Shown here piece after piece: positions 50,902 through 55,284 of a stretch of 64,000 nucleotides of DNA. The translations under genes were made by a program, and so were the position numbers. Position 1 is the stretch's first letter. The number at the start of each line of letters is the position of its first letter. This stretch comes from Candidatus Sulfotelmatobacter sp. GTDB lineage: Bacteria > Vulcanimicrobiota > Vulcanimicrobiia > Vulcanimicrobiales > Vulcanimicrobiaceae. The stretch is from NCBI GenBank assembly GCA_035504415.1, contig DATJRY010000021.1:372001-436000 (forward strand), read 5' to 3'. Below the pieces are notes generated by a model. The model saw only the letters and a list, made by a program, of their open reading frames with translations. It was not told where the DNA came from and searched no databases.

Positions 50902-52038
50902 TTAGTTCTGCGAGGGCAGGACCGGCAGCTTCGCGCGGTCGATGCGCTTGCCGACGACCTTCTCGATGTCGCGGAAGAGCGGCTCTTCGTCACGCGAGAC
51001 GAAGGTGATCGCCTCGCCGGTCGCCTGCGCGCGCGCGGTGCGGCCGACGCGGTGCACGTAGTCCGCGGGCACCATCGGGACGTCGAAGTTGACGACGTGG
51101 CCGAGGTCTTGCACGTCGATGCCACGAGCGGCCACGTCGGTCGCCACCAGCACGCGCAGCTTTCCGCGCTTGAACTGATCGAGCGCACGCGTGCGCTGCG
51201 CCTGCGAGCGATCGCCGTGGATGCGGTCGGCGGCGATCTTGTGCTTCTCCAGGTGCAGGGCCAGCCGGTTCGCTCGCGCCTTGGTGCGCGTGAACGCGAT
51301 CGCGCTGTAGATGCCGTTGTCCTCGAGCAGCTTCATGAGCAGCTCGGTCTTGCGGGTCTGGTCGATCGTGTAGGCGCGGTGCGTGATGCCCTCGGCGGTG
51401 GTCGCCTTGGGGGGCGCCGTCGCCACGCGCACCGGATCGCGCAGCAGCTCGCGGCTGAGCTTCTCGATCTCCGGCGCGACGGTCGCGCTGAAGAACAGCG
51501 TCTGGCGTTTCGCCGGCAGCGCGGCGGCGATGCGCCGCACGTTCGGCAAGAAGCCCATGTCGAGCATGCGGTCCGCCTCGTCGAGGACGAACACGCTGAC
51601 GTCGCCCAGGCGCGTGACCTTCTGTGCCATCAGGTCGAGCAGCCGGCCCGGACACGCGACGATGATGTCGGTACCGCGCGCGAAGGCCTTGATCTGCGGG
51701 CCGAAGCCGACGCCGCCGAAGACGGCCGCGATGCGCACGTCGGTGCCGCGCGCCATGGCCTGCAGGTGCTGGCAGATCTGGGCGGCCAGCTCGCGGGTCG
51801 GCGCGAGAACGAGCGCGTGGGTGCGGCCGCGGGGCAGCGTGAGGACGTGTTGGAGCAGCGGCAACCCGAAGGCGGCCGTCTTGCCGGTGCCGGTCTGCGC
51901 CGAGGCGAGGACGTCGCGTCCGGCCAGCGCGGGCGGGATCGCCGCGGCCTGGACGGGCGTGGGCACGGTAAAATCGAGGGCGCGCAGCGCGCGCAACAGC
52001 ACCGGCTGCACGCCGAGTGCTTCAAAGGTCTGCGTCAA
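50902..52038 (-). CDS. DEAD-box RNA helicase (RhlE-like)
   Basis: A 378-residue core helicase: Q-motif PTPVQAAAIPPALAGRD, Walker A AQTGTGKTAA, VLDEADRM (DEAD), FFSATV, and HRVGRTARA. It has almost no C-terminal extension, so substrate choice probably relies on partners. TTG 52038 is used as start because FEALGVQPVLLRAL, the usual N-terminus, begins right after it; no better start was seen. RNA unwinding in cold shock or ribosome assembly is the family's role. Confidence 0.88.
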   Translation of the reverse strand: MTQTFEALGVQPVLLRALRALDFTVPTPVQAAAIPPALAGRDVLASAQTGTGKTAAFGLPLLQHVLTLPRGRTHALVLAPTRELAAQICQHLQAMARGTDVRIAAVFGGVGFGPQIKAFARGTDIIVACPGRLLDLMAQKVTRLGDVSVFVLDEADRMLDMGFLPNVRRIAAALPAKRQTLFFSATVAPEIEKLSRELLRDPVRVATAPPKATTAEGITHRAYTIDQTRKTELLMKLLEDNGIYSAIAFTRTKARANRLALHLEKHKIAADRIHGDRSQAQRTRALDQFKRGKLRVLVATDVAARGIDVQDLGHVVNFDVPMVPADYVHRVGRTARAQATGEAITFVSRDEEPLFRDIEKVVGKRIDRAKLPVLPSQN

Positions 52039-52224
52039 TTCAGTTCTTTCGGAACGGCGATGCGCAATACGATCGTCGGTTTCCGAAAGATCGCGCCAGG
52101 AAGGATGCCACCGGGAGCGGTGACCCACCCACCATACCATACCGGCCGCCGCCCCAGGTACGACCCTTGACGGACGGCTGATCCGGTCCAGGGACGGCCC
52201 CGCCGGGCGCCCAATTTCGGCCCC

Positions 52225-53085
52225 GTGAAACGCTCGCTCGCATTGCTGGCAGCCTCGTGTCTGCTCGCGACGCCCCGTGGGCCTGCCGCCGCCGCGCCGC
52301 CGCCGCCGCCCACACATACGCTCTGCCCGGTCTTCGTCGGGCGCATCGACAGGCTGGACGAGGCGGGAACGCGCTATGCGGTCGGGCTGCTGACCTACGG
52401 CGAGTCCGGCACCACCTCGGGAACGATCGCGTTCTTCGCCGGCGACGAGCGGTACGAGGTGCCGTTCGCGAACGCGCTGGCCGACGACCCGACCGACGCG
52501 GGGGCGTCCCCGGAGCCGATCGTCGTGCAGTTCGCACGGCCCGTCACCCTCACGGCCGCCGTCGTCGCAGCGCTCGGTTCGCCGCCCGCCGCCTGCTCGG
52601 CTCCGTATATGCCGTGGACGCAGAACGGGCGCATCGCGCCGGCCCTCGCGCACGAATGGTTCTCGAGCCGCGTAGCGCGGCCGAGCCCAGGTCCGATGCC
52701 GGCGGACATGCTCGACGAGAGCAAACTATGGGAAGGCTTCGACGCGGAGGCGCGGACGGCGAGCGCGGTTGAAGCCGGCACGCCGATCGCGGTCGCGCCG
52801 TGTGCGCAAAAGGACCACGTTCCCTCGCTCAGCGGGCGCCCGGGGCTGGCGTGGATGCCGCCCCTGGTCACGCACGGACCATCGGCCTACACGACGGACG
52901 TCTTGGTCGCCATCGACGCCGACGGTACGCTGCTGAACGCGGCGACGCTCGTTTCGTCATCCAACAAGACGTTCGATCACGTGGCGCTCGTCGCTGCGCA
53001 GCAGTCGACGTTCCGCGCCGGGCAGTTCCGATGCGCTCCCGTCGCGGGAAGCTACGTCTTCGAGTTCTCGTACGAACACGGCTAA
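52225..53085 (+). CDS. Secreted protein with TonB-C-like C-terminus (tandem paralogue 1)
   Basis: A 286-residue exported protein (signal peptide 1-23, then Ala/Pro linker). The conserved central part begins CPVFVGRIDRLDEAGTRYAVGLLTYG. The last 65 residues (DVLVAIDADGTLLNAATLVSSSN...FDHVALVAAQQSTFRAGQFRCAPVAGSY) look like a TonB C-terminal fold, yet there is no TonB-type transmembrane anchor or proline-rich spacer. The gene immediately following codes for a protein of the same length and layout. Role unknown. GTG start at 52225. An open gap of 186 bases separates it from the divergent helicase gene. Confidence 0.72.
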   Translation: MKRSLALLAASCLLATPRGPAAAAPPPPPTHTLCPVFVGRIDRLDEAGTRYAVGLLTYGESGTTSGTIAFFAGDERYEVPFANALADDPTDAGASPEPIVVQFARPVTLTAAVVAALGSPPAACSAPYMPWTQNGRIAPALAHEWFSSRVARPSPGPMPADMLDESKLWEGFDAEARTASAVEAGTPIAVAPCAQKDHVPSLSGRPGLAWMPPLVTHGPSAYTTDVLVAIDADGTLLNAATLVSSSNKTFDHVALVAAQQSTFRAGQFRCAPVAGSYVFEFSYEHG

Positions 53086-53155
53086 ACGCGACGCGCCCCC
53101 GGCGGCGCGCGGCGACGACAGGCGCGATCGGCCGCCGCCGCCAAGACCCGCCGGC

Positions 53156-54016
53156 GTGAAAGGCGCGCGCGGAACGCTGGCGGTCTTTTGCTTGTTCGCG
53201 ACGATAACGCCGACGCTCGGTGCCACCGCGTTCGCGCAGCCCAGCTCCGATCTGTGTCCCGTCTTCGTCGGGCGCGTCGATGCGCTCGACGATGCCGGCA
53301 CGCGCTACGCCTTCGGGCTGCTGACCTACGGCGGCTCGGGCAGCGCGTCGGGGACGCTCGCCGTCTATGCCGCGGACAAGCGCTACAGCGTGCCGTTCAC
53401 CGACGCGTTCGTCGACGATCCGACGGAGTCGACCTCACGCCCGCGGCCGCTGGTCGTGCGCTTCGCGCGGCCGGTAACGGTCAGCGGCGCCGTCGTCGCA
53501 TCGCTCGGCGCACCGGCGGCGCCTTGTCCGACTCCGTATCTGCCGTGGACCGCCAACGGTCGGGTCGCGCAATTCGTCGGGCACCAACGGCTCTTCTACG
53601 ACGCCGAGAGCGATCGTCACCAGGAATCCGACGCCGCCGTGATCGACGAACGGCAGCTCTGGAACGGCTTCGACGCCGCGGCCGCGAACGTCGCGCCGGT
53701 CGACGCGGGCGACGGCGTGCCCGCCGCGCGTTGCACACAAGACGATCGCGGCGCGAGCGTAACGCACGTCGAACGCGCGCTGATCCCCGCCATCGTCCCG
53801 GCCGGTCCGTTCGCCTACCGGAGCGCCGTCCTGGTCACGCTCGACGCGACGGGAGCGGTCGTCGCCGCCGCGACGGTGGTCTCCGCGAGGGAGGACGTGC
53901 CGCTCGACGCGGCCGCACTCACCGTGGCCGAGCACTCGTCCTATCGGCCGGCACGCTTTCGCTGCGCGCCGGCGGCAGGCAGCTACGTGTTCGTGCTCAG
54001 CTACTACCGCGACTGA
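53156..54016 (+). CDS. Secreted protein with TonB-C-like C-terminus (tandem paralogue 2)
   Basis: A 286-residue paralogue of the protein at 52225-53085. Same order: signal peptide, CPVFVGRVDALDDAGTRYAFGLLTYGG, cysteines at matching positions (APCPTPYLPW, ARCTQD, FRCAPAAGSY), and a TonB-C-like end (AVLVTLDATGAVVAAATVVSA). The two share short identical blocks but differ widely between them, so the duplication is old. GTG start at 53156. Convergent with the sigma factor gene, nine bases away. Function unknown. Confidence 0.72.
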   Translation: MKGARGTLAVFCLFATITPTLGATAFAQPSSDLCPVFVGRVDALDDAGTRYAFGLLTYGGSGSASGTLAVYAADKRYSVPFTDAFVDDPTESTSRPRPLVVRFARPVTVSGAVVASLGAPAAPCPTPYLPWTANGRVAQFVGHQRLFYDAESDRHQESDAAVIDERQLWNGFDAAAANVAPVDAGDGVPAARCTQDDRGASVTHVERALIPAIVPAGPFAYRSAVLVTLDATGAVVAAATVVSAREDVPLDAAALTVAEHSSYRPARFRCAPAAGSYVFVLSYYRD

Positions 54017-54024
54017 GCGACACG

Positions 54025-55284
54025 CTACGCTCGCGCACAGCGAGCGGCGCGGGTGAGCAGCAGCTCGCGGTCGCGGGCGTTGTGCGCCAGCGCGGCCGCG
54101 CGCTCGAACTCGGCGCGCGCCTCGGCGAAGCGCTCGAGCTTCTCGAGCAGGTCGCCGCGCACGCTCGGCAAGAGATGGTAGGCGCTCAGCGCGGGCTCGG
54201 CGAGGAGCGCGTCCACCTGCTCGAGGCCGCTTTGGGGGCCGAACGCCATGCCGACGGCGACGGCACGGTTCAGCTTGACGACCGCGGTGGGATACAGCTC
54301 GGCGAGCGCGTCGTAGAGCGCGGCGATGCGCGCCCAGTCGGTCTCCTCCGCCCTGCGCGCTCGCGCGTGGCAGGCGGCGATCGCCGCTTGCAGCGCGTAC
54401 GGCCCGAGCGGCCCCAACCGCTCAGCACGTTCGAGCGCGCCCAGGCCGCGCCGAATCAGCAGCTGGTCCCAACGTGACCGATCCTGCTCGAGCAGCAGGA
54501 CGTGCTCGCCGGATGGTCCGACGCGCGCTCGCGCGCGCGACGACTGCAGCTCCATCAGCGCGACCAGCCCGTGCACCTCACCCTCCTCGGGCGCGAGCTG
54601 GGCGAGAACGCGCCCCAGCCGCAACGCCTCCTGCGAGAGCGCGGGCCGAAGAATGTCCTCGCCGCTCGAGGCCGAGTAGCCCTCGTTGAAGATGAGGTAG
54701 ATGACTTCGAGGACCGAGGTCAGGCGTTGCATCCGCTGCGCCGCGTCGGGCACCTCGAACGGCACGCGCGCCTCCGCCAGCGTGCGCTTCGCGCGAACGA
54801 TTCGCTGCGCGATCGTCGGCTCCGATGAGAGGAACGCTCGCGCGATCTCCGTCGTCGAGAGACCGCCGAGCAAGCGCAGCGTCAAGGCGACGCGTGCTTC
54901 GACCGAGAGCACCGGGTGACACGCGACGAACATCAGGCGCAGCAGGTCGTCGGGGATGTAGTCCTCGTCGAGCGTGGCGAAGACGGACTCCTCCGATTCC
55001 TGGTCCTGCAGCTCGTGGCCGAGCAGCCGGTACTTGTCCTCAGCCGTCTGCGCTCGCCGGAAGTAGTCGATCGCGCGACGCTTCGCAACCGACATCAGCC
55101 ACGCTCCCGGATTGCGCGGAATTCCGTCGCTCGACCATTGGGAGAGCGCCGAGACGAACGCGTCCTGCGCGAATTCCTCGGCCAGACCGACGTCGCGAAC
55201 GACGCGGGTGAGCGCGGCCACGAGTCTGGGGGACTTGATCCCCCAGACGGCTTCGATCGCGCGCACCGACTCCGGCCTCGTCAC
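54025..55284 (-). CDS. ECF sigma factor of the SigJ/ECF42-like long type (DUF6596)
   Basis: A 419-residue RNA polymerase sigma factor: sigma-2 region (LAEEFAQDAFVSALSQW, NPGAWLMSVAKRRAIDYFRR), sigma-4 region (LTLRLLGGLSTTEIARAFLSSEPTIAQRIVRAKRTL), then a long TPR-like C-terminal domain (LIFNEGYSASSGEDI, GPYALQAAIAACHARA, YPTAVVKLNRAVAVGM, HLLPSVRGDLLEKLERFAEARAEFERA). This layout marks the ECF42 group, which normally pairs with a YCII/DGPF protein; none is visible here. GTG 55284 begins one base after the OsmC stop. Confidence 0.9.
   Translation of the reverse strand: MTRPESVRAIEAVWGIKSPRLVAALTRVVRDVGLAEEFAQDAFVSALSQWSSDGIPRNPGAWLMSVAKRRAIDYFRRAQTAEDKYRLLGHELQDQESEESVFATLDEDYIPDDLLRLMFVACHPVLSVEARVALTLRLLGGLSTTEIARAFLSSEPTIAQRIVRAKRTLAEARVPFEVPDAAQRMQRLTSVLEVIYLIFNEGYSASSGEDILRPALSQEALRLGRVLAQLAPEEGEVHGLVALMELQSSRARARVGPSGEHVLLLEQDRSRWDQLLIRRGLGALERAERLGPLGPYALQAAIAACHARARRAEETDWARIAALYDALAELYPTAVVKLNRAVAVGMAFGPQSGLEQVDALLAEPALSAYHLLPSVRGDLLEKLERFAEARAEFERAAALAHNARDRELLLTRAARCARA

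Follow-up and report, generated by a model that had tools for sequence, protein, structure and literature searches.

A tandem pair of predicted exported proteins combines a head of no named family with a TonB-like tail lacking the TonB anchor

The C-terminal tail of TonB is known as the part of a force-transmitting machine that does the work, and a locus encoding two exported-looking proteins that carry such a tail without the TonB anchor raises the question of what the tail is used for. In the window (the whole stretch of DNA analysed, 64,000 nucleotides), the two genes lie in tandem on the plus strand and encode P1 (52225..53085), a two-domain protein supported by its open reading frame (ORF), codon-position GC, and homologues, and P2 (53156..54016), its sister paralogue. 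Both start with GTG, and the intergenic gap is 70 bases. The GC content by codon position (0.68/0.58/0.86 for P1 and 0.71/0.57/0.86 for P2) supports these as real genes. The original prediction described tandem paralogues of 286 residues each, and the ORFs confirm this and lie where stated; BLASTP aligned the two proteins with 135 of 284 positions identical (48%, E 3e-80), far beyond chance, and the alignment bore out the common motifs CPVFVGR, D.LD, AGTRYA, and GLLTYG, as well as the positions of all five cysteines (12, 34, 124, 193, and 270 in both). The same 286-residue size hinges on the start codons picked and on small, mutually cancelling indels. P1 and P2 are the product of a duplication, and their specificity may differ.

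P1 opens with a signal-peptide-like segment (residues ~1 to 24; 52225..52296, plus strand) that includes a hydrophobic 11-mer, LALLAASCLLA, starting at residue 5 (mean hydropathy 2.54). Judged from hydropathy alone, both proteins have the short, signal-like start expected of secreted proteins, as had been proposed. A lipoprotein was considered and rejected: Cys12 is close to the start, and inspection by eye of the residues preceding it showed no lipobox. The genome's own anchored TonB has the motor motif SxxxH, as SVILH at position 31, and 21 prolines in a 50-residue stretch, whereas SxxxH was found neither in P1 nor in P2 (residues 1 to 60 of each), and both proteins lack a proline-rich spacer (no 50-residue stretch has more than 9 prolines). 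The predicted absence of a TonB anchor therefore held, and we infer that P1 and P2 are exported as soluble periplasmic proteins. One could argue that they are true TonBs whose anchor was overlooked through a wrong start codon, given that no evident ribosome-binding site was seen by eye before either GTG. There is in-frame room upstream for 18 codons before P1 and 73 before P2 (frames of 304 and 359 residues), but these codons hold no TonB-like helix and linker. Moreover, a folded head rather than a proline-rich spacer comes after the start, and the layout recurs in relatives at other loci, all of which makes an overlooked anchor highly improbable.

We then considered how well the tail matches TonB. 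The P1 tail (residues 193 to 286, with Cys193 and Cys270; 52801..53082, plus strand) was delimited from profiles, a model, and structure comparison, and the P2 tail (residues 193 to 286; 53732..54013, plus strand) from its alignment with P1, TIGR01352, and the family profile. The TonB_C model PF03544 scored 21.6 bits on P1 (E 3e-4; curated cut-off 24.6) and 24.0 bits on the same stretch in a whole-genome search, and did not match P2; TIGR01352 gave E values of 5e-4 (P1) and 0.037 (P2), both below its cut-off. With P1 and P2 as its only members, a profile recovered the anchored TonB of the same genome (E 1.9e-5) together with two further tail proteins, and an 18-tail profile, which includes six tails of anchored TonBs, matched TonB (9ddz, E 3.9e-10) and TolA (6s3w, E 4.3e-5; 1lr0, E 5e-5).

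The P1 model, built from five sequences (mean pLDDT 71.2, pTM 0.69), placed strands at 222-230, 236-243, and 274-283 and a helix at 248-259 of the tail, with block pLDDT of 73 to 83 over residues 221-280 and lower values at 201-220. Structure comparison aligned this tail with the TonB C-terminal domains (CTDs) 9dc4_T (Z 10.2; 85 residues, rmsd 3.3), 9ddz (Z 9.9; 83 residues, 3.2), and 6i97_D (Z 8.4; 89 residues, 3.3), followed by TonB and TolA tails at Z of about 5 to 7. TolA and TonB were also the best rows in Foldseek, all short of E 0.001. TonB and TolA tails have one fold in common, and domain III of TolA (1lr0 and 6s3w) aligned with the P1 tail at Z 7.3 and 6.9; the match is weaker than to the best TonB, however, and nothing like the helical TolA domain II was seen in the model. 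Structure prediction of the C-terminal segment thus returned a TonB-CTD-like fold and no different one, in agreement with the P1 and P2 profile, so that a TonB-CTD-like reading of the tail, as originally predicted, is well supported by sequence and model. Relative to the TonB CTD (PF03544, TIGR01352; Neisseria meningitidis 9ddz and 9dc4), the tails would be distant sequence kin of the same fold. Unlike TonB, P1 and P2 lack an anchor, motor motif, proline-rich spacer, and the segment P..A...G described below, and have a folded head instead.

The P1 head (residues 34 to 134, with Cys34 and Cys124; 52324..52626, plus strand) was delimited from models and a profile and is predicted to be an Ig/Fn3-like beta-sandwich, and the P2 head (residues 34 to 134; 53255..53557, plus strand) from its alignment with P1 and a profile match (E 1e-46). 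In the full-length model, the sandwich spans residues 34-130 with block pLDDT of 75 to 95, and the P1 head modelled alone gave the same strands (mean pLDDT 82.0). Matches to Ig/Fn3-like folds were generic, with a best Z of 5.8 for the whole model and 5.7 for the head alone; in the latter comparison many unrelated rows were tied at the top, and no single Ig/Fn3 family stood out. Foldseek of the head against PDB and viral models gave no match at E ≤ 0.001, no Pfam family was supported, and no sequence relative was found in the PDB. In the models, the overall arrangement of the head is Fn3/Ig-like in a generic way; no sequence relation was found. In P1 it is connected to the tail by a linker seen in the model (residues 135 to 192; 52627..52800, plus strand), with pLDDT below 50 at 136-163 and short helices at 165-178. 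The cysteines would form one disulfide per domain, 34-124 and 193-270. In 12 of 12 hand-picked two-domain proteins, the mature part has four cysteines that follow one common order; one of these proteins (G128a) has a fifth. While the TonB_C domain and its fold are known, the notable element is an anchorless two-domain family with a head of no named family.

An initial genome-contig scan found no relative, and a scan with one short pattern returned three loci, all in Candidatus Eremiobacterota. The P1/P2 profile (E ≤ 0.001) matched 114 of 149 genomes of the phylum, namely 114 of the 117 in the class and none of the 32 outside it; most of the listed matches covered the tail only. Strong head-profile matches (E ≤ 2e-16) were confined to 6 of the 117 class genomes, i.e., the genome studied here, G123, G124, G128 (three copies), G079 (three), and G092, with weak matches (E 3e-7 to 0.008) in 13 further ones. 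In profile-profile comparison, the head was linked with one of the groups of weak matches (97.6%, E 3e-12) and, less surely, with two others (77.8% and 68.3%). The proposal of a lineage-specific family suits this pair and its site, but was too narrow in that anchorless proteins of the same layout are widespread in the class. In the tree, P1 and P2 were sisters (100/98) and G079b and G079c formed another pair (100/99), with 5 of 8 inner branches open and a long-branch warning. It was also observed that weak head relatives lie next to, and in divergent orientation with, 2-oxoacid dehydrogenase complex genes (E1, transketolase-like, E2) at L072, L073, L075, L076, L078, and L080, identified by Pfam on L072 and by similarity at the other loci. 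A phage or plasmid origin of the pair was rejected: neither protein matched a PHROGs family at E values up to 0.1, and tblastn of P1 against plasmids and phages gave no match at E 1e-5. In the literature searched, we found no paper treating both TonB_C and Eremiobacterota.

The surroundings of the pair were examined in the same genus. A DEAD-box helicase (50902..52050, minus strand; PF00270, PF00271) diverges from P1, and an ECF-type sigma factor with DUF6596 (54025..55254, minus strand; domain matches) converges with P2; further neighbouring genes encode an OsmC protein and, on the side of the pair away from the helicase, a short-chain dehydrogenase. The helicase is adjoined by an aspartyl protease domain protein with a signal-like start (PF13650; 49534-50874, minus strand). 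Helicase relatives (73 to 75% identical) were present in 10 of 10 other genus genomes, adjoined in five by relatives of the PF13650 protein, and P1 or P2 was beside the helicase in none of the ten. In five (G119, G121, G122, G127, and G128), this dehydrogenase has a relative 0.13 to 0.8 kb from the helicase, without a P1/P2 match; among the other five, the flank differs in four (1.5 kb read) and the contig ends in one. The pair thus lies between two genes that are close neighbours in five of these ten genomes; together with the genes for the sigma factor and OsmC, it either sits in a lineage-specific insert or has dropped out of the other genomes. An operon logic was rejected, as the helicase, sigma factor, OsmC protein, and dehydrogenase show no functional tie; beside the pair we found no functional link to neighbours, no partner, and no receptor genes.

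The genome also encodes another tandem pair of secreted tail proteins, located between ribH and mtnA (G000:C17; L081 5215-6697). Seven of the 11 genus genomes were readable at mtnA. Tail proteins lie between ribH and mtnA in this genome (two), G123, and G128, and also occur by mtnA in G124 (ribH was not seen on its contig), while they are absent from this place in G119, G121, and G126. G123 and G128 hold P1-type genes where this genome has the C17 pair, and profile-profile comparison did not link the heads of the C17 pair with that of P1 (0.8% probability).

P1 and P2 coexist with a Ton system, as the genome encodes ExbB, ExbD, ExbD, and an anchored TonB in a row and has 14 matches to TonB-dependent receptor barrels (PF00593). 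The 11 genus genomes contain 76 tail matches, 60 of which were classified: 15 anchored proline-rich TonBs, seven head-matched proteins (P1 and P2 included), and 38 others. The others include tail-only short proteins and SIMPL, M56, and TPR fusions; they likewise lack TonB's own anchor and linker, but differ from P1 and P2 by their partner domains, and the M56 protein comes with a membrane part of its own. Individual cases were a TPR and TonB_C protein directly preceding ExbB, ExbD, ExbD, and TonB (G000:C7 4264-8069, L083), TonB_C fused to SIMPL (DUF541; L119 and L125), and short export-like proteins consisting of little more than TonB_C (L118, L128, L115, and L123).

The reading we favor, with a probability of about 0.4, is that P1 and P2 are soluble, exported two-module adaptors whose TonB tail serves as a passive periplasmic dock. 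Following export to the periplasm as soluble proteins, the head would recognise a ligand or partner, while the repurposed TonB CTD, through beta-strand addition, would tether the protein to a peptide segment in the periplasm. This segment could be a TonB-box-like part of an outer-membrane receptor, and docking would be passive; because nothing joins P1 or P2 to ExbB/ExbD, they would be unable to transmit force. The last strand of the TonB tail is the edge used in beta-strand addition; all seven head-matched proteins keep its pattern Y.[FLIV]...[FY], as do all 14 anchored TonBs tested. According to PMC12204202, TonB and TolA tails bind by beta-strand addition. The passive dock is favored by the fold and sequence of the tail, the lack of the motor motif and of a proline-rich stretch, this conserved pattern, the presence of a Ton system, the constant four-cysteine plan, and the conservation of the head over the tail. 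In the seven head-matched proteins, mean identity was 43.3% (35 to 65) for the head and 32.4% (22 to 44) for the tail, and the head was the better conserved in 21 of 21 pairs, a contrast that is biased because the set, P1 and P2 among them, was recruited by its head profile. Against proteins of similar layout picked otherwise (C17a, C17b, G124x, C11, and G127n), it was the tail that was more recognisable than the head.

The main rival, nearly as likely, regards the tail as a structural remnant whose TonB-like fold persists as a stable end cap or dimerisation module and binds no peptide; P1 and P2 could then pair with each other through it. This would fit the divergence of the tail from that of nine anchored TonBs, one per genome, which average 70.5% identity, although the latter look orthologous and the seven proteins do not, so that part of the gap between 70.5 and 32.4% reflects paralogy. 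It would also fit the mean identity at residues 210-221, which fell to 7% in the seven proteins compared to 72% in anchored TonBs, and the distribution of the P..A...G segment, which precedes the first strand of the tail and is visible in the alignment to TonB: all 15 anchored genus TonBs have it, whereas the seven proteins all lack it at that position. The lone match among the seven, in G128a, is upstream, and G128a retains a partial SPEAENRNLSG. Judged from these sequence comparisons, receptor binding may have been lost. The P..A...G pattern also occurs in 19 of the 38 other tail matches of the genus and is therefore not specific to anchored proteins. Tandem pairs were seen three times (in the window, as C17 of the same genome, and as G079b/c), and dimer formation by TonB CTDs is on record in PMC9022066. 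On the other hand, the last-strand pattern is kept in all seven proteins, and most tail proteins of the genus had no tandem partner in the stretches read.

Free tails, a complete Ton cluster, and receptors in one genome would also suit a decoy or regulator, in which free tails vie with the anchored TonB for the TonB boxes of receptors and thereby tune uptake. Loss of a segment common to all anchored TonBs would make for a poor competitor design, however, and the missing link to receptor genes beside the pair likewise argues against such a role, which we consider improbable.

Overall, P1 and P2 probably reuse a part of the TonB motor for some other job. A broader and more tentative possibility is that the class turned the TonB tail into a general periplasmic docking module, by which exported proteins with varied heads (Ig-like, four-cysteine-plan, and SIMPL) would hang on receptor or envelope segments through a disulfide-stapled tail, leaving the Ton motor unused. 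For species with several TonBs, PMC12204202 states that the first with all three domains was taken, and anchorless proteins of such species would thus have been left outside. The label "TonB family protein" on such genes can mislead, and a clade with a Ton cluster and many free tails on other domains allows one to ask what role the tail has without force.
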